Shown piece by piece: positions 32,979 to 40,550 of a stretch of 42,515 nt of DNA. The DNA lies in contig PAJK01000083.1 of the NCBI GenBank assembly GCA_002706025.1, positions 11,409 through 53,923 of the forward strand, written 5' to 3'. Source of the stretch: Oceanospirillaceae bacterium. GTDB lineage: Bacteria > Pseudomonadota > Gammaproteobacteria > Pseudomonadales > Oceanobacteraceae. The translations under genes were made by a program, and so were the position numbers. How positions within the stretch are numbered: the stretch's first letter is position 1; each line of letters opens with the position of its first letter. The notes beneath the pieces are model-generated. The model saw nothing but the letters and a program-made list of their open reading frames with translations, was not told where the DNA came from and did no database searches.

Positions 32979-33189
32979 TTTGGCTCCGGGCGGAAATAAA
33001 AAGTATTGGCGCGAGTTTACGGCGGGGGCAGGTGAATGCAAGTCAGCCGGCAAAGCCACTCTGTGATAAATGTTGTTACTGCTTAAGCACTACTACTTAA
33101 CGGGCGGCGCTCTTGTTAGACTGCGGCTGCGCCAATGCAGACAATAACAGGCCGATACCAACCGGCTGACAGCAGAAGGAAGGAACCCC

Positions 33190-34464
33190 ATGAAATTAGA
33201 AACCCAGGCGATCCATGCCGGCTTCAGCGAAGACCCGACCACCCGCGCCGTCGCGGTGCCCATTTATCAGACGACGTCTTACAGTTTCCGCGATACCCAG
33301 CACGGCGCCGATCTGTTTGATCTGAAAGAACCGGGCAATATTTACAGCCGTATTATGAACCCGACCAATGCGGTGCTGGAGGAGCGCCTGGCGGCCATGG
33401 AAGGTGGCATTGCTGCCTTGTGTATGGCTTCCGGGATGGCGGCGATTACTGCGGCTCTGCAAACTCTGGCCCGCGCCGGGGATAATATCGTCAGCGTCAG
33501 CCAGCTTTACGGCGGTAGCTATAACCTGTTTGCCCACACCTTTCCGCAGCAGGGCATCGAAGTGCGCATGGCATCCGGTGATGATGTGGCCGCGCTGGAA
33601 GCCTTAATCGACGATAACACCCGGGCATTGTTCTGCGAGTCTATCGGCAACCCGGCGGGCAATGTGGTGGATATTAAAGCGCTGGCGGATATGGCGCATA
33701 AGCACGGCGTCCCCGTGGTTGTGGATAACACAGTGGGAACGCCTTTCCTGTGCCGGCCATTTGAATTTGGCGCCGACATCGTGGTGCATTCGCTGACCAA
33801 ATACATCGGTGGCCATGGCACCACGTTAGGTGGCGCCATTGTCGATTCCGGTAAATTCCCGTGGAAAGATAATCCGCGCTTTAAACAGTTTAATGAGCCG
33901 GATCCGTCCTATCATGGCGTGGTTTACACGGAAGCCATGGGCCCGGCGGCGTTTATTGCCCGCGCCAGGGTAGTACCGCTGCGTAATATGGGGGCAGCGC
34001 TGTCGCCGATGAATGCTTTTATGCTGTTGCAGGGACTGGAAACACTGGCACTGCGTATGGAACGCCATGTCGAAAATGCTCAGAAAGTTGCGGAATATCT
34101 GCAGGCTCATGAGCAGGTAAACTGGGTGAACTACGCCGGATTAAAAGATAACCGTTACTACGATGTTGCACAGCGTATGTTAGGCGGTAAGCCGTCGGCG
34201 ATTTTAAGTTTCGGTATCAAAGGCGGTGCCGCTGCCGGGGCAAAATTTATTGATGCTCTGCAGATGATCAAACGTCTGGTGAATATTGGTGATGCGAAAA
34301 GTCTCGCCTGTCATCCGGCCACCACCACGTACCGTCAGCTGAATGAAAAAGAACTGGCGTCGGCTGGTGTCAGCAGTGATCTGGTGCGTTTGTCCATCGG
34401 CATTGAACACATCGACGATATTATTGCGGATATCGCTCAGGCTCTGGCGGCAGCGAATAACTGA
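33190..34464 (+). CDS. metY: O-acetylhomoserine sulfhydrylase (PLP-dependent)
   Basis: A 424-residue enzyme of the Cys/Met metabolism PLP family. It would make homocysteine from O-acetylhomoserine and sulfide, giving a direct sulfhydrylation route to methionine. Family marks are the N-terminus KLETQAIHAGF, YSRIMNPTNAVLEERLA, ALCMASGMAAI, VVVDNTVGTPFLCRP and the PLP lysine K204 in HSLTKYIGGHGTT. The roughly 425-residue length and extra insert (GKFPWKDNPRF) point to the MetY type rather than the shorter MetB/MetZ type. A purine-rich AAGGAAGGAA site precedes the ATG. I saw no recognisable SAM riboswitch in the 211-base upstream gap. Confidence 0.9.
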   Translation: MKLETQAIHAGFSEDPTTRAVAVPIYQTTSYSFRDTQHGADLFDLKEPGNIYSRIMNPTNAVLEERLAAMEGGIAALCMASGMAAITAALQTLARAGDNIVSVSQLYGGSYNLFAHTFPQQGIEVRMASGDDVAALEALIDDNTRALFCESIGNPAGNVVDIKALADMAHKHGVPVVVDNTVGTPFLCRPFEFGADIVVHSLTKYIGGHGTTLGGAIVDSGKFPWKDNPRFKQFNEPDPSYHGVVYTEAMGPAAFIARARVVPLRNMGAALSPMNAFMLLQGLETLALRMERHVENAQKVAEYLQAHEQVNWVNYAGLKDNRYYDVAQRMLGGKPSAILSFGIKGGAAAGAKFIDALQMIKRLVNIGDAKSLACHPATTTYRQLNEKELASAGVSSDLVRLSIGIEHIDDIIADIAQALAAANN

Positions 34465-34482
34465 TCCGGCCTGACCTGCAGG

Positions 34483-34545
34483 CTGTCCGTCGTCTGTAGC
34501 CCGCTTTTGCCGGGTTATGTAAAGACGGCGGACGGTCTGTCATTT
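34483..34545 (+). terminator. Strong stem-loop after metY, probable terminator
   Basis: Bases 34483-34495 pair with 34523-34535 over 13 bp, including two G-T pairs; the loop contains a small inner CCCG/CGGG stem. The right arm is followed by TCTGTCATTTT. The structure starts 19 bases past the metY stop. Confidence 0.6.
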
Positions 34546-34565
34546 TCCCTCTGCTGCGATACTAT
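34537..34565 (+). promoter_or_regulatory. Possible promoter of the membrane-protein triplet
   Basis: CTGTCA (34537-34542) and TACTAT (34560-34565) are 17 bases apart, 33 bases before the first gene. It overlaps the tail of the metY terminator, so termination and initiation are back to back. Moderate consensus match. Confidence 0.35.
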
Positions 34566-34597
34566 AGAGCCCAATTTTTCCCGCAGCTGAGATCCTT

Positions 34598-35269
34598 ATG
34601 TCGTTCGGCCAACTGATTGCATTAGCCAGTTTTATTCTCTCCATGGGCACCATCGCAGTGACCTACTGGGTCGGTACCTCTGCCGGAACCGCAGAACTCT
34701 GTAATCCTTTTATCGATGGCTGCACCGACATTACCCACACTGGTATGAAAGGCGACGGCGGTTTTATCTTCCGTGGCGGCATGATCGCGGCCTGCGTGTT
34801 TTTCATTATCTGGTGGCAGGTGATGCGTGTCTGGCTGAGTGGCACCAACATTAACAGCAACCGTATCGCGCTGAATGTTATGCATTTCTTCGGTGTCGTG
34901 GCGGCGCTGGGTCTGCTGGTCGGTACCGCGGTATTGTTGCCGGAAAAAGATTCTACCCGCTGGGGCGTGCATGTACGTGGCGCAAACCTGTTTTTTCAGG
35001 GCATGCTGATTGCGCTGACGATGAATTACATTCTGATTTTACGCGCATTTAAACGCGGCCTGCCGGTGCCCTCCATCCGCTTTAAAACCCTGATCATTGC
35101 CATCCTGTGGATTATGACGGTGGGCTTTGCCGGTGTTACCGTCGGCGTTGAAATGAGTCACGGTAAACGCATTATCGAATGGTGGGCGACGCTGTTTATC
35201 GGCATTTATTTCCTTACCTCTTTCTGGGACTGGAAACATATCCGTCTGGTCAATCAACAGCAGTACTGA
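34598..35269 (+). CDS. Multi-spanning membrane protein, copy 1 of a paralogous triplet (possible Frag1/DRAM/Sfk1 relative)
   Basis: I do not recognise a characterised homologue. The 223-residue protein has five to six predicted helices: about 8-27, 60-80, 92-115, 128-148, 162-182 and 195-212. After helix one comes a short loop with C35, P37, G41, C42, I45-T46 and T48-G49, then F58-R59 and W72-W73 at the next helix. A LLPEKD segment near 118 and a C-terminal EWW...DWKHIRL block complete the pattern. All these positions recur in the next two genes. The short Cys/Pro/Gly loop followed by a helix beginning FR resembles the Frag1/DRAM/Sfk1 superfamily, but this is only a resemblance. First gene of a three-gene cluster; next gene after 58 bases. 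Confidence 0.6.
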   Translation: MSFGQLIALASFILSMGTIAVTYWVGTSAGTAELCNPFIDGCTDITHTGMKGDGGFIFRGGMIAACVFFIIWWQVMRVWLSGTNINSNRIALNVMHFFGVVAALGLLVGTAVLLPEKDSTRWGVHVRGANLFFQGMLIALTMNYILILRAFKRGLPVPSIRFKTLIIAILWIMTVGFAGVTVGVEMSHGKRIIEWWATLFIGIYFLTSFWDWKHIRLVNQQQY

Positions 35270-35327
35270 TTTAAGCCGGCCAGCAAACCTGCTGGCCAAT
35301 ACTCCGTTATCACACAGGGAATGATGC

Positions 35328-36050
35328 ATGACTGTGCCGCAGCGAATTGCTCTTCTGGCCGTTGTTTTACCCTTTTTGACCATAGGAAGCACTTACGGTC
35401 TGTCCGTTGCAGGCGGTCATGTGCCGCTGTGTATTCCATGGTTTGACGGCTGTTCCACCATTACCGCCACCGGGGTTTATTATCCGGCGGCGTACGTGTT
35501 CCGCGCCGGACTGATCAGTACTGCCGTGATCGCTATCCTCTGGTGGTACTGCGTTCGTGCCTGGCTGGAAAGTGTCGGCCATCCGCAACATCACCCCTGG
35601 GTACACCGGCTGGTGGCATTCGCTACCGTGGCCAGCATTCTGCTGGTGGCTTCCATTGCCGTGTTAGGCGAGCACATGGTGCCGTCGCGTGATCATAAAT
35701 TCCTGTGGCGCTTCCACACCATTACCGCTGTGCTGTTTTTTCTCACCACGGCGATCTGCCAGATTGTGATGACATGGCGTATGCGCCAGCTGCAGCAGGA
35801 GCTGAATATTAAATTCAGTGGCATCGTGTTTAAGCAGGTTCTGGCTGTGCTGCAGCTGCTGCTGATTCTGTGGCTGGCGGTGATTATGATCTTCGATCTG
35901 AATACGGATGGTCCGATTGAAATTGCCGAATGGTGGCTGGCGTCCCTGAGTTCACTGTATTTCGGGACTACATGGCGTGACTGGAAGGAATTCCGCCTGA
36001 CCCGCCGCGAGAAAGGCGACGGCATTCATGCACAGGAGGCCAGCGTATGA
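35328..36050 (+). CDS. Multi-spanning membrane protein, copy 2 of the triplet
   Basis: A 240-residue paralogue of its neighbours. It aligns without gaps over the first 80 residues: C35, P37, D40-G41-C42, I45-T46, T48-G49, F58-R59 and W72-W73-Y74. Helices lie near 8-27, 60-80, 92-113, 125-145, 165-187 and 197-215. The C-terminus has AEWW and RDWKEFRL, then a 16-residue charged tail (EKGDGIHAQEASV) absent from copies 1 and 3. It shares the N-terminal MT.PQRIA sequence with copy 3, to which it seems closest. Its stop overlaps the start of copy 3 (ATGA), suggesting coupled translation. Function unknown; a membrane role in lipid or envelope handling is a guess. Confidence 0.6.
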   Translation: MTVPQRIALLAVVLPFLTIGSTYGLSVAGGHVPLCIPWFDGCSTITATGVYYPAAYVFRAGLISTAVIAILWWYCVRAWLESVGHPQHHPWVHRLVAFATVASILLVASIAVLGEHMVPSRDHKFLWRFHTITAVLFFLTTAICQIVMTWRMRQLQQELNIKFSGIVFKQVLAVLQLLLILWLAVIMIFDLNTDGPIEIAEWWLASLSSLYFGTTWRDWKEFRLTRREKGDGIHAQEASV

Positions 36051-36715
36051 CTTTGCCACAGCGCATTGCGCACACCAGCTTCTGGTTATCCCATGGCAGT
36101 TTCTGGCTGACGCTGGTGATGGGTATGTATTTGGGGACAACGGACATTTGCGTACCGTATCTCACCGGCTGTACCAGCATCACCGCGACCGGTATTCCGG
36201 ATCCTCAGGCCTTCGTGTTCCGTGGCGGGCTGATTTCTGCCTGCGTACTGTTTGCTGTGTGGTGGTATTGCATGCAGTCCTGGCTGATTGAAATTGCACC
36301 GGAGCGTCCGATCTGGACGGTGCGCTACATGGTCACTGCCGGAGTGATCAGCTCGGTCTGTCTGATTATCGCCACTGCGGTGCTGCGTCCGGACAAAGAC
36401 CATTTACCATGGACCCTGCATACCGTTTTTGCCGCGTTGTTTTTCCTGATTTCTTTATTGGTGCAGACCCGTGTGACTTACTGGCTGAAACACCTGAAAA
36501 AGCGTGGTGTGGATATCGGCAGCAGCCTCAAACAGAAGTTTGCACTGATTTATGCTCAGTGGTTTTTCCTCGGTGTGATGATCGTTCTGCAGGTAGTGGA
36601 TTCGGATGATCGTTGGAAGAGCGTGGTGGAGTGGTGGATGGCTTTGCTGATCGGCCTGTATTACCTGAGCAGTGCTCAGGACTGGAAGCATTTCCGCCTG
36701 ACAGAAACGGATTAA
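36047..36715 (+). CDS. Multi-spanning membrane protein, copy 3 of the triplet
   Basis: A 222-residue paralogue, with C35, P37, G41-C42, I45-T46, T48-G49, F58-R59 and W72-W73-Y74 at exactly the same positions as copies 1 and 2. The LRPDKD segment near 117 corresponds to LLPEKD of copy 1, and the C-terminus has VEWW and QDWKHFRL. Five to six helices are predicted. It starts within the last codon of copy 2, so the two are almost certainly co-translated. A long stem-loop follows. No function is recognised. Confidence 0.6.
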   Translation: MTLPQRIAHTSFWLSHGSFWLTLVMGMYLGTTDICVPYLTGCTSITATGIPDPQAFVFRGGLISACVLFAVWWYCMQSWLIEIAPERPIWTVRYMVTAGVISSVCLIIATAVLRPDKDHLPWTLHTVFAALFFLISLLVQTRVTYWLKHLKKRGVDIGSSLKQKFALIYAQWFFLGVMIVLQVVDSDDRWKSVVEWWMALLIGLYYLSSAQDWKHFRLTETD

Positions 36716-36721
36716 AGATGC

Positions 36722-36780
36722 AGCAAAATAACGCAATAACCCGGATGAAACTGATCCGGGTCATTCTGGCGTAATTTGCT
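36722..36780. terminator. Long imperfect stem-loop after the membrane-protein triplet
   Basis: The core is ACCCGGAT/ATCCGGGT (36739-36746 with 36754-36761) with a 7-base loop. Outer pairs ACGC/GCGT (36731-36734 with 36769-36772) and AGCAAA/TTTGCT (36722-36727 with 36775-36780) extend it to 59 bases. It begins seven bases after the stop codon. There is no long T-run, so it may be a terminator or an mRNA-stabilising 3' structure. Confidence 0.5.
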
Positions 36781-36841
36781 GGTCGCTATTTCAGTGGCAC
36801 AGGCATAGTCTGAATTTACCCAATAAAAAAGGATTCAGACG

Positions 36842-37090
36842 ATGCCGATTTCTTCAGAACTGATGAGCGAAATGACGTTACTGGCGCAGTTCGATCTGCA
36901 CAGCATGCAGAAAGGGATTAAGGTGCATAACGACGCCAGTCCGGAACTGCTGGCAGCGGTAAAACGCCTGCATGAGAAAGGCCTGATTGATGATGCTGAC
37001 GGTGGTTACCTGACCAGTCTCGGTCACACCGCGGCAGAGCATCTGCAATATCTGCTGGAAATTCTGAAAAAACGCCAGAGCCCGGAATAG
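36842..37090 (+). CDS. Small conserved protein of the TIGR02647 type
   Basis: An 82-residue soluble protein. The sequence pattern (LLAQFDLHSMQKGIKVHND, then LLAAVKRLHEKGLI, GGYLTSLGHTAAEHLQ) matches my memory of the TIGR02647 family, small gammaproteobacterial proteins of unknown function. The middle looks like a winged-helix tip: a helix, RLHEKGLI, a short hairpin ending in GGYLTSLG, then another helix, so DNA binding is possible but unproven. AAAGGA lies nine bases before the ATG. Single gene, convergent with rsmE only seven bases away. Confidence 0.7.
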   Translation: MPISSELMSEMTLLAQFDLHSMQKGIKVHNDASPELLAAVKRLHEKGLIDDADGGYLTSLGHTAAEHLQYLLEILKKRQSPE

Positions 37091-37097
37091 TCTGACG

Positions 37098-37826
37098 TCA
37101 GAAATCGCCCCACTGATACTGAAACACACTCAGGGCCGTTAATGCGGCCGTTTCTGTGCGCAGAATACGCGGCCCGAGTGTCAGTCCATGAAAGCCTGCA
37201 GCAAGCACCTGTTGCACTTCTGTCTCACTGAAACCACCTTCAGGTCCAACCAGCAAAGCCAGTGTCTGCGGCTGTGTGTAATCACGCAGCGGTTTCTGAT
37301 CGTGTGGATGCAGAATAAATTTCAGATCCGCCTCCGTCTGCGCACACCAGTCATTGAATGACAGTGGCGGGTGAATGCGGGGTATGACATTCCGCCCGCT
37401 CTGTTCGCAGGCACTGACCGCTACTTTCTGCCAGTGTTCAATCTTCTTATCCAGTCGTTCACCTTTCAGGCGGACTTCACAGCGTTCACTCCACAGTGGC
37501 GTGATGTCACTGATGCCCAGCTCGGTGGCTTTCTGAATGGTGAAGTCCATGCGGTCGCCTTTCGAAACCACCTGACCGAGATGAAGCTGCAATGGCAGTG
37601 GCGCATCTTCCCGCACGACACCGGTGATATCAGCGGAAGCGGATTTCTTACCGCTGTCACTCAGGGTCGCGGCGTATTCACAGCCGTCACCATTAAACAG
37701 CCGCAGCGCGTCGCCGTCAGTCAGGCGCAGCACGCGCACCAGATGAGTCGCAGCCTGGCTGTCGAGCTCCAGACGCGATCCCGGTGTTAATGGCTGGGGG
37801 GTGTAAATTCGTGGTCCTGAACTCAT
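37098..37826 (-). CDS. rsmE: 16S rRNA (uracil-1498-N3)-methyltransferase
   Basis: A 242-residue SPOUT-class methyltransferase that methylates U1498 of 16S rRNA using S-adenosylmethionine. The N-terminal PUA-like domain begins PRIYTPQPL and includes HLVRVLRLTDGD; LHLGQVVSKGDRMDFTIQKATELG and the SERCEVRL and SACEQSGRN segments follow. The C-terminal trefoil knot carries LLVGPEGGFSETE and LGPRILRTETAALTAL, which bind the methyl donor. Near-collinear with E. coli RsmE. Convergent with the TIGR02647-like gene, with no visible terminator between. Confidence 0.95.
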   Translation of the reverse strand: MSSGPRIYTPQPLTPGSRLELDSQAATHLVRVLRLTDGDALRLFNGDGCEYAATLSDSGKKSASADITGVVREDAPLPLQLHLGQVVSKGDRMDFTIQKATELGISDITPLWSERCEVRLKGERLDKKIEHWQKVAVSACEQSGRNVIPRIHPPLSFNDWCAQTEADLKFILHPHDQKPLRDYTQPQTLALLVGPEGGFSETEVQQVLAAGFHGLTLGPRILRTETAALTALSVFQYQWGDF

Positions 37827-37977
37827 GGTACTGGCTCTGCTGCATCTGCGGTTTTCAGGTCGCTGATAATAGCAAAGCGGATTTACTGCGGCGATAGTCT
37901 GCGGCTTTTGCCGACAGGCCCTTGCAGGCCGTCAGCTTCAGGCCGCCGCGACTGAGGCAGATAAGTTGGAGGAGTCA

Positions 37978-37995
37978 GAGCCGGTTCCCCGGCTC
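37978..37995 (-). terminator. Hairpin at the end of the stator/PilZ operon
   Basis: GAGCCGG and CCGGCTC form a perfect 7-bp stem with a 4-base loop that overlaps the PilZ stop codon on the minus strand. There is no following T-run, so it is a weak terminator or a 3' stabilising structure. Confidence 0.35.
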
Positions 37996-38548
37996 AATGA
38001 TCGCGCATATGCTTCAGGGTTTTTGACTGCAACTGAAACAGATGCTGAATCAGCAGTTCCTGCTCGGATTCCTGAATGCCATCGAAATTCACCCGAACCA
38101 GAAACGGATTGTTGGTCTGCTGGGTTTTTTCTGCAGAAACGACGGTACCCGCCAGATTAAGCATGGCGTTGGAAGGTTTCAGCTGTAACTGAAACAGCAG
38201 GTGGCTGGACCCACTGAGATCAGAATCGGTATAAAACGACATACCACAGGCACTGAGGTTAACCCGTACCCGTGATTCAGTACCGGACATAGGTGCTCCA
38301 CTGCTGTCATCTTTATGGCCACTCAGCAGGTTAATCTTGCGGTTATACAGTTCCAGAATCTGCGCCAGTGACGGGTGCACGGAGCGCATCTGATGGAGCA
38401 GTGTTCCCAGTTCCTGCTCCAGTTCCCTGAGCTCGTTTTTTTCCAGTGACTGACTTTCTTTCCAGTGCTGGAACTCTTCCTGAGAAATGGCCTGGAAATC
38501 CATAACCACTTCATCATCCAGGCGGAAATAGCGGCGGCGTTCTTCCAT
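37994..38548 (-). CDS. PilZ-domain protein with a long helical insertion
   Basis: A 184-residue protein. RRRYFR at residues 4-9 matches the c-di-GMP-binding RxxxR motif, and NLSACG at 97-102 matches the second PilZ motif (D/N)xSxxG; the following strands (GMSFYTDSDL, LLFQLQL, GTVVSAEKT, FLVRVNFDGI) fit a PilZ barrel. The two motifs, normally 20-40 residues apart, are separated by about 88 residues, most of them helical and rich in Glu, Leu and Gln (about 22-75), predicting an inserted helical hairpin or coiled coil. It starts 17 bases after pomB with an AAAGGAAAAG site, so it is the third gene of the stator operon. A role as a c-di-GMP-dependent regulator of the flagellar motor, like YcgR, is an attractive inference. 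Confidence 0.8.
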   Translation of the reverse strand: MEERRRYFRLDDEVVMDFQAISQEEFQHWKESQSLEKNELRELEQELGTLLHQMRSVHPSLAQILELYNRKINLLSGHKDDSSGAPMSGTESRVRVNLSACGMSFYTDSDLSGSSHLLFQLQLKPSNAMLNLAGTVVSAEKTQQTNNPFLVRVNFDGIQESEQELLIQHLFQLQSKTLKHMRDH

Positions 38549-38565
38549 TTCTTTTCCTTTTTTTG

Positions 38566-39543
38566 TCAGAAGATCTCATTTGGTCTGAGTTCAAAATCTT
38601 CCGGTTGTGCGTTCAGAGCATCGTTCACAGCGGCGTCATCGGTTTCAATTTCCGGCACATCGTCATCGTCGCCCGGTTGTTTGCGCAGAATAATAATTTC
38701 TACCCGGCGATTACGTTCACGGGCTTCCGGACTGTCGTTGGCCACCAATGGCTGGGTGTCAGCGTGACCAACAATCTGGAAGCGGCTTTCGTCCATTTCC
38801 GGTGCGACAAATAATTCCTCTGCGAAAGCGGCCGCACGGGCGGATGACAGCGTCCAGTTACTGCGGAAACGACCGCCACTGACTGGAATATCGTCGGTAT
38901 GGCCTTCCACTGAGATCATGCCGGGAATGGTCACCAGTACCTCGCGGATTTTGTCGATCACCGGCAGAAATCTGTCTTCGATATAGTCAGAACCCGAACG
39001 GAAAGCGCCACGCTGCTGAATACGGATAATGATCTTTTTACCCACGGTTTCGATTTCGACCTGACCCTGAGCAATTTCATTTTCCAGTTTTGCAGCCATT
39101 TTCATGGCTTCCTCTTCGGTTTTTTCGTTCTCCATATCTTCTTTGGGGACGACCACTTCGCGGGTCAGTTCACCTTGATCACCCTGACGTTCTTCCTGTT
39201 GTGTCACTTCGTCCTGACACAGAACCTCCAGCGAACTTTTGGTGATGTCACTGGTTTTCTGCCGTACTTCGTTGATCGGCGTCGGTTCCGGAATGGACGG
39301 GCTGAAATGCCGGGCAATCACACTGGTGCCTTTGGGCGGATCGGATACGTTGACCACCGTCTGCACACCAAATGCCTGACGCAGCTCACCGGCCAGACGT
39401 TTGAACTTCAGTGCGTCCATCTCGGAGAAAGACAGCAGCAGCACGAAGAAACACATCAACAGCGACATCAGGTCGGCAAAGGTCGCCAGCCAACCCGGTA
39501 TCGCGGGACAGGGTGGGCATTCCTGTTCTTCTTCGGCAGACAT
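38566..39543 (-). CDS. pomB: Flagellar stator protein PomB (sodium-type MotB)
   Basis: A 325-residue protein with one membrane helix and a C-terminal OmpA-type peptidoglycan-binding domain. The helix TFADLMSLLMCFFVLLLSF places the ion-binding Asp at D24 and a Cys at C31, the same numbers as in Vibrio PomB; the segment up to LSFSEMDALKFKRLAGE is almost identical to PomB, so Na+ rather than H+ is the likely coupling ion. The OmpA domain has SVEGHTDDIPV and NWTLSSARA, then ERNRRVEIIIL. Between them is a long Glu-rich linker (about 110-170). The tail after the OmpA domain is very acidic (GDDDDVPEIETDD). Second gene of the operon, two bases from pomA. Confidence 0.92.
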   Translation of the reverse strand: MSAEEEQECPPCPAIPGWLATFADLMSLLMCFFVLLLSFSEMDALKFKRLAGELRQAFGVQTVVNVSDPPKGTSVIARHFSPSIPEPTPINEVRQKTSDITKSSLEVLCQDEVTQQEERQGDQGELTREVVVPKEDMENEKTEEEAMKMAAKLENEIAQGQVEIETVGKKIIIRIQQRGAFRSGSDYIEDRFLPVIDKIREVLVTIPGMISVEGHTDDIPVSGGRFRSNWTLSSARAAAFAEELFVAPEMDESRFQIVGHADTQPLVANDSPEARERNRRVEIIILRKQPGDDDDVPEIETDDAAVNDALNAQPEDFELRPNEIF

Positions 39544-39545
39544 GA

Positions 39546-40304
39546 TTACTCACCTGAACTTGTGCGTTTGCCTTCCTGAATGTAGGCCTGCAGCATGGAT
39601 TCAATCACACGCGGATTCTGACCACTCTGAATAGCCAGCAAGGCGTCGATAATCATAGATTTGAGACGGTCTTCTTCGTCCTTTCTGAGGGTCAGCTTGT
39701 CGCCTACTGGAAGGGCAAACATGGTCGCCATCATGGCGCCGTAGAGCGTTGTCAGCAGTGCAACCGCCATCGCCGGACCAATGGTTTTCGGATCGTCCAT
39801 GTTCGACAGCATGGCCACCAGACCAACCAGGGTACCGATCATCCCCATCGCCGGTGCTACGTCGCCGATGGCTTTAAAAATATTGATACCGATGTCATGG
39901 CGTTCACTGGCCTGCTTCATTTCTTTGCTCATCAGAGTGCGCACGACGTCCGGGTCATGGCCGTCGACCAGCAACTGAATGCCTTTGCCAAGAAAATCAT
40001 CACTGACTTCTTTACCTTCCAGCGACAGCAGGCCGCCTTTACGCGCCAGACCGGCAAGCTCGACAACTTCTTCAATGATGGTTTCCGGTTTGCTCAACTT
40101 GAATGAGAAGGCCTTGGCTGCCACTTTCACTGCGCCAAGAAACTGGCCCAGTTCGAATTTCATCATTACTGCGAAAATACTGCCGACGACCACGATCAGA
40201 ACCGACGGTATATTGATGAACATGCCGAGCTCCCCACCCAGCATCATGGCCATCACAACGATACCGAAGGCCCCGACCAGGCCAACTAATGATGCGAGAT
40301 CCAC
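39546..40304 (-). CDS. pomA: Flagellar stator protein PomA (sodium-type MotA)
   Basis: A 252-residue protein with four membrane helices that, with PomB, forms the ion-conducting torque unit. The closing GDVAPAMGMIGTLVGLVAML and GPAMAVALLTTLYGAMMA helices match Vibrio PomA nearly residue for residue; the cytoplasmic loop contains charged residues (RKGGLLSLEG, SKEMKQASERH) that contact FliG. I chose GTG 40304 (MDLASLVGLVG) because AAGGAG lies five bases upstream and the length fits; the TTG at 40325 would add seven residues encoded by the ribosome site itself. First gene of pomA-pomB-pilZ. Confidence 0.94.
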   Translation of the reverse strand: MDLASLVGLVGAFGIVVMAMMLGGELGMFINIPSVLIVVVGSIFAVMMKFELGQFLGAVKVAAKAFSFKLSKPETIIEEVVELAGLARKGGLLSLEGKEVSDDFLGKGIQLLVDGHDPDVVRTLMSKEMKQASERHDIGINIFKAIGDVAPAMGMIGTLVGLVAMLSNMDDPKTIGPAMAVALLTTLYGAMMATMFALPVGDKLTLRKDEEDRLKSMIIDALLAIQSGQNPRVIESMLQAYIQEGKRTSSGE

Positions 40305-40550
40305 AGTCGCTCCTTGGAAAATCAATTTTCAATGATTCTGAGTTTAGTCAAACATTTGTATTCTTCCTCAGCGCTGACGAATTTATTGGTAGGGAATCCG
40401 GGGTGTGGCATCTTTCCGCACGGCCGTACCTGCCGGCGGCCGCTTGACCCTGTACATGCATAGCGTTAGTGTTGCCGCGCCCTGCGCATGCCTCTGTCGA
40501 CGCAGGCTCTATTCCGGTACCCTGACACTGAATAACAGTGAGAGACCCCT
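40305..40550. promoter_or_regulatory. Divergent spacer between pomA and xseB
   Basis: A 246-base gap holding promoters for two divergent transcripts. Next to the pomA ribosome site there is a short inverted repeat GAAAAT-CA-ATTTTC (40317-40330). On the pomA strand TTGACT occurs just upstream, but no matching -10 box was clear. I saw no convincing sigma-28 or sigma-54 site. Confidence 0.3.

Follow-up and report, generated by a model that had tools for sequence, protein, structure and literature searches.

A tandem trio of predicted Frag1/DRAM/Sfk1-family membrane proteins in the GTDB family Oceanobacteraceae

Gene layout and family membership

The window analysed here, a stretch of 42,515 nucleotides from an Oceanospirillaceae bacterium, carries three adjacent plus-strand genes, called c1, c2 and c3 (Table 1). 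They lie where an earlier note on this DNA had placed a tandem triplet of paralogous membrane proteins, and their lengths agree with the 222-240 residues given there. While 58 bases separate c1 from c2, the genes c2 and c3 share the four-base overlap that had also been pointed out earlier. According to ORF coordinates the same overlap is present in 11 of 11 triplets, which suggests translational coupling of c2 and c3. Judged by layout and sequence, c1-c2-c3 form an operon-like set of diverged PF10277 proteins.

Table 1. Coordinates of the features at the locus (positions of the window)
Feature	Position	Strand	Basis
Copy 1 (c1), 223 aa	34598-35269	+	ORF list
Copy 2 (c2), 240 aa	35328-36050	+	ORF list
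Copy 3 (c3), 222 aa	36047-36715	+	ORF list
ATGA, overlap of c2 stop and c3 start	36047-36050	+	sequence
C35 to C42 codons of c1, two-cysteine loop after helix 1	34700-34723	+	79-homologue alignment
E194-W195 codons of c1, near the start of helix 6	35177-35182	+	79-homologue alignment
Inverted repeat of 12 pairs, about 20 bases past the c3 stop	36735-36765
Small ORF after the triplet, 82 aa	36842-37090
PilZ-type ORF and MotA/MotB-type pair	37994-40325	-	sequence recognition

In the alignment the three proteins are 29-36% identical to each other. A search of the bacterium's own genome with c1 retrieved c3 (E=4.2e-40, 37% identity) and c2 (E=2.6e-24, 31% identity), values that argue against a chance likeness, and no fourth copy was found at E<=0.001 in the whole genome (4.25 Mb in 118 contigs, 93% complete). 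The alignment runs without gaps through its first 113 columns, further than the 80 residues claimed before, and it bears out the identical positions of C35, C42, F58-R59 and W72-W73 in all three proteins. Of the common ending described as EWW...DWK.hRL, EWW (194-196), D211-W212-K213 and R216-L217 are identical throughout; P37 and E194-W195 are likewise common to the three copies. An insertion lengthens the helix 3-4 loop of c2.

Downstream of c3, the inverted repeat appeared terminator-like on the minus strand only in a pattern scan. Promoter and terminator patterns were within two standard deviations of shuffled sequences (4 versus 2.1, sd 1.4, and 4 versus 2.7, sd 1.9), and Rfam yielded no matches within 33000-37900. 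Relatives of the small ORF, sought among the fetched loci as ORFs of 80 aa or more, are listed only in L067, L071, L074 and L078.

The profile search proposed in the earlier note placed all three proteins above the curated gathering score of PF10277 (Frag1/DRAM/Sfk1), which is 30.3 bits, and nearly the full length of the profile was covered in each case. For c1 the match reached 42.1 bits (E=9.7e-11, residues 5-215 on positions 3-220 of 220), for c2 36.8 bits (E=3.8e-09, residues 7-221 on positions 5-219) and for c3 43.6 bits (E=3.4e-11, residues 9-215 on positions 7-219). By the profile itself, c1, c2 and c3 are thus assigned to PF10277 as bacterial members, and the former view that only a loop resembles Frag1/DRAM/Sfk1 proteins has to be given up. 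A strong match to a family of known function had been named as an argument against a novel system; the match is there, but an agreed biochemical function is not given in the relevant parts of the papers cited below. No match near a cut-off was obtained with NCBIfam for the three proteins, and DUF998 (PF06197) was not among the Pfam matches listed for them. A reading as a defence system was rejected because PADLOC-DB returned no family up to E=0.1 for any of the three.

Predicted fold, membrane topology and invariant residues

Single-chain structure prediction, as suggested earlier, was performed for c1 and c2 from 12 sequences each and resulted in six long helices for both. The c1 model (pLDDT 86.5, pTM 0.85) places them at residues 3-29, 52-83, 89-111, 119-152, 160-180 and 188-222, and the c2 model (pLDDT 81.9, pTM 0.77) has an extra helix in its tail (226-239) at a pLDDT under 60. 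The predicted six-helix fold of c1 and c2 is in keeping with PF10277, and six helices are also given for the eukaryotic TMEM150 proteins in part of a review (PMC10378246).

In an alignment of 79 bacterial homologues, C35, P37, C42 and W195 are invariant (79/79) and E194 is present in 78 of the 79 rows. The C35-x6-C42 loop is therefore a constant of this bacterial branch. In every group, lysine and arginine peak in the helix 4-5 loop, with means from 3.1 to 4.8. By the positive-inside rule, loops rich in these residues are located on the cytoplasmic side. This peak would put the helix 4-5 loop, the helix 2-3 loop and both protein ends in the cytoplasm, and with the ends there, the C35/C42 loop would face the periplasm, as would the beginning of helix 6, which carries E194-W195. 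Two regions run against the charge pattern, namely the C-terminus of c3 (D/E 3.1 versus K/R 1.4) and loop 5 of c1, supposedly periplasmic (K/R 2.0 versus D/E 1.0).

Periplasmic by the inferred topology and seven residues apart, C35 and C42 would most simply form a structural disulfide. They might instead transfer electrons or act as a sensor of periplasmic redox state, as thiol-redox proteins do, and both their invariance in 79 of 79 homologues and their inferred position on the oxidising side are compatible with such a role. We nevertheless regard it as very improbable, given that the spacing is C-x6-C and not C-x-x-C, that no third cysteine column is conserved in at least 85% of 76 rows, and that thioredoxin, DsbB and VKOR families are not among the Pfam matches up to E=10, a search in which the HMMER filters drop most weak matches. 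Moreover, conservation of P37, E194 and W195 is roughly as strict as that of the cysteines, which points to a structural cluster.

Comparison with solved structures yielded little. Foldseek found no PDB match to the c1 model at E<=0.001; in VIA-align, the top row was 8uao_A (Z 14.2, rmsd 3.6, 198 residues aligned), followed by rows with Z 9.2 and below, all middling for a helical bundle and with several channelrhodopsins among them. A search of PDB sequences with a 3-row profile gave no matches, and with a 32-row profile the best hit was a designed protein at E 0.065, so that no useful solved structure was obtained. Another reading is that the proteins are channels or channel regulators, a role put forward for TMEM150C (Tentonin 3); with several subunits assembled, their six helices could line a pore. 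In that review, TMEM150C is reported in mechanosensitive currents and treated as a proposed component or regulator of a mechanosensitive channel, but the channel claim is disputed there and currents without Piezo1 were not found (PMC10378246). The Foldseek result, which lacks channels like any other structure, is weak evidence in the same direction, and we consider a role in transport or mechanosensing unlikely.

Occurrence, history and selection of the three copies

A 32-row profile of the group was used for the survey of copy numbers that the earlier note had called for. Among 44 genomes of the GTDB family it produced 66 matches in 42 genomes: three copies in 11, two in 2, one in 29 and none in 2, the latter being 94% and 71% complete. 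Seven of the nine genomes in the window's genus have triplets, as do 2/7, 1/2 and 1/1 of those in three further genera; the 25 genomes of the other four genera have none. As 33 of the 44 genomes are devoid of the triplet, c2 and c3 are dispensable. Beside c1, these two genes are only present together or absent together. The named relatives of c3, from Thalassolituus sp. UBA1087 (86%), Thalassolituus alkanivorans TMPB967 (84%) and a Saccharospirillaceae MAG (80%), all come from genomes that carry c1, c2 and c3; plasmids had no match to c3. Judged by these protein identities, the window probably belongs to a Thalassolituus-like gammaproteobacterium.

In G014, one of the two-copy genomes, two c1-type genes (L080:4312-4998 and L081:6744-7418) each adjoin a metZ-like gene, which suggests either a duplication of the unit of c1 and metZ-like gene or a mixed assembly. 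The other, G023, harbours one c1-type gene and, on another, short contig of 3,872 bases that includes neither c1 nor c3, a lone c2-like gene (L090:2029-2715) that falls inside the c2 clade of the tree described below. Because this contig has the c2-like gene without c3, the tie between c2 and c3 is not absolute. The gene is flanked there by two ORFs labelled lipoprotein-like from their sequence.

Outside the family, homologues were found in 31 genomes of the order (41 of 293 genomes with a match in all; an even draw, searched with a single protein that may miss distant copies). These other gammaproteobacterial PF10277 homologues resemble c1-c3 in length and share the C-x-P-x4-C ... E-W core; they are single genes in 30 of the 31 genomes and an unlinked pair, 1.27 Mb apart, in G209, with no tandem set. 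In the class, 13 of 369 genomes matched, including the window's own, and the 12 others had one match each, that of G484 being partial and containing a stop. With PF10277 as the query, 10 of 398 genomes of the phylum matched, 5 of them above the cut-off; PF10277 alone misses G032 and one copy of G015, both of which the group's own profile finds. PF10277 homologues are thus patchy, and among the surveyed genomes the tandem triplet was seen only in this GTDB family. The objection raised in advance, that homologues might always be single and the triplet a recent strain-specific duplication, is largely borne out in its first half, with single copies in 42 of 43 matched genomes outside the family in two surveys, but not in its second: the 44-genome survey and the trees rule out a recent strain-specific duplication.

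A tree of 79 proteins contained 58 of the 66 family matches; L052, with a stop in its match, was left out, and eight single copies (G032, G1031, G1032, G1033, G1035, G1038, G1039, G1040) are off the tree. With 11 rows each, c1, c2 and c3 formed one clade each, in the sense that a single branch separates every group from the two others (support 100/100, 98/94 and 99/90). Twenty-one of the family's 29 single-copy proteins were placed, 17 within the c1 clade and 4, from genus g4, as its sister (99/93), a joining that comes with a long-branch warning. In BLAST against the window's copies, the off-tree G032 is 75% identical to c1 and G1033 matches c1 best (136 bits; c3 124). The best match of G1031 is c3 (144 bits; c1 131), and this protein therefore lends no support to the c1 side. 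When homologues from other Gammaproteobacteria serve as the outgroup, c1 and its sister group together to the exclusion of c2 and c3, whose own order is weak (81/25). On these sequence trees, either the splits between c1, c2 and c3 are older than the genera or the c2-c3 pair came by transfer.

The neighbouring genes, whose labels (radA-like, metZ-like, rsmE, motA/motB, pilZ, ispA) were given by sequence recognition, look like housekeeping genes within the GTDB family. A radA-like and/or metZ-like gene of the type found in the window adjoins c1 in 16 of the 21 placed single-copy genomes and in 11 of 11 triplets, which is why we regard c1 as the core copy; such a neighbour is missing in five placed single-copy genomes, namely G018 and the four from genus g4. 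The PilZ-type ORF and the MotA/MotB-type pair of the window also stand beside c1 in many relatives. Of 40 distant loci fetched, the 30 in which our own gene caller recovered the family gene were analysed. Recurrent neighbours up to four genes to each side were limited to 3-4 loci each, mainly in genome sets of one family, and a recurring partner gene was not found there; nor did the genes around the family loci and these 30 distant loci offer a lipid clue.

A tree was computed by a quick method from up to eight genes next to the locus for 26 rows (10 with the triplet; G010 and G015 under half filled; genus g4, G018 and G1036 absent), and on it the triplet state requires 5 changes, at least 4 of them by starred branches. 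The c2-c3 pair has therefore been lost or gained several times. This pattern would suit duplicates kept for dosage or by drift, with little functional difference, and lost lineage by lineage, and so would the very long branches of c3 in G015 and G1036, which meet in the 79-protein tree and carry a warning for that reason. The c3 of G1036 (L199:5014-5718) has glycine in place of E194 and keeps both loop cysteines; the two genes could be decaying, or that of G1036 could encode a subunit that no longer needs E194. Dosage copies, however, are expected to stay alike, whereas these paralogues are only 29-36% identical and yet form one clade each across genera. Estimates of dN/dS also speak against drift. 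By NG86 the ratio was 0.03-0.19 in all 19 comparisons, out of 21, that gave a value, covering all three copies (18 within the window's genus; two of the three with G013, of another genus, were saturated). Most comparisons that involve the window had dS above 1, and 7 of 12 YN00 estimates failed; the most trustworthy set is that of G002, G003, G007 and G008, with dS of 0.58-1.03 and dN/dS of 0.03-0.07. Seven genome pairs were compared for dN, one of them involving G013, and c2 ranked highest in five. These sequence comparisons indicate purifying selection on c1, c2 and c3 in the window's genus and hence functional proteins in its lineage, and we judge retention by dosage or drift to be improbable.

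That three divergent copies are retained, as the earlier note stressed, is thus borne out as real and old and as accompanied by purifying selection; the choice it offered between specialisation and a hetero-oligomer stands, in that the data fit specialised proteins or a shared complex. Under specialisation each paralogue would act as a monomer or homo-oligomer on its own substrate or in its own condition, and no mixed complex would form. We see this as a possible if doubtful account. Members elsewhere are mostly single, so that one protein suffices; c2 has its own loop insertion; a c2-like gene stands on a contig without c1 or c3 in G023; and c3 has diverged strongly in G015 and G1036. The co-occurrence of c2 and c3 beside c1 and their constant overlap, on the other hand, are more typical of partners synthesised in constant proportion.

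A tentative model and its bearing on the family

The eukaryotic members of PF10277 presumably comprise PGAP2/FRAG1, the N-terminus of CWH43, DRAM, TMEM150 and yeast Sfk1. According to the parts of these papers that concern them, Sfk1 may regulate how phosphatidylserine and other lipids are arranged across the bilayer of the yeast plasma membrane (PMC9018018), GPI reacylation needs PGAP2, with a review leaving it unclear whether PGAP2 itself is the acyltransferase, and CWH43 is required for ceramide remodelling (PMC7125958). Because a role as channel component or regulator has been argued for TMEM150C, there is no single agreed function of the family. PF10277 is described in one passage as annotating proteins of eukaryotic species, and a structural link to two families of bacteria and archaea is drawn there (PMC10584675). 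DUF998 (PF06197, arCOG02008), of archaea and bacteria, has been linked to Frag1 by predicted structure (PMC10584675) and by HHpred (PMC5898192); for the archaeal family, a role in sulfur transfer has been suggested and a strictly conserved histidine is stressed in the section concerned (PMC5898192). A literature search, mainly of titles and the beginnings of abstracts and with most subscription papers outside its reach, did not find a reported function for a bacterial member.

As the eukaryotic relatives point, by analogy, to membrane lipids, we tentatively favour lipid handling in the periplasmic leaflet by a core protein, c1, with a coupled accessory pair, at a probability that falls clearly short of even. 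The three would be inner-membrane proteins with both ends in the cytoplasm and the C35/C42 loop in the periplasm, where a structural disulfide between C35 and C42 would hold this loop close to E194-W195 at the start of helix 6, and a lipid of the periplasmic leaflet would be handled. In this arrangement c1, found alone in most relatives, would be the working core, and c2 and c3, made together, would be an accessory pair that joins c1 or, alternatively, serves a second lipid or condition. The narrower proposal of a three-subunit Frag1/DRAM/Sfk1 complex, with c1 as the core lipid subunit and c2-c3 adding regulation or a second lipid, is rather unlikely in our estimation. We know of no hetero-oligomer among Frag1/DRAM/Sfk1 members, and such a complex would, if true, be the first and would offer a simple model of the action of PGAP2, Sfk1 and DRAM proteins. 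The readings weighed here are not fully exclusive and their odds overlap.

What is already known is the protein family, and what is new is an old, selectively kept tandem trio in bacteria: compared with the eukaryotic members, c1-c3 are bacterial and occur as three diverged tandem copies. Frag1/DRAM/Sfk1 proteins are known mainly from eukaryotes and their biochemical activity is unsettled. Thalassolituus alkanivorans TMPB967 carries three diverged copies together, and close relatives carry one. The triplet and its single-copy relatives therefore offer a natural comparison in which gene deletion may address the activity of the family and the division of labour among its subunits.
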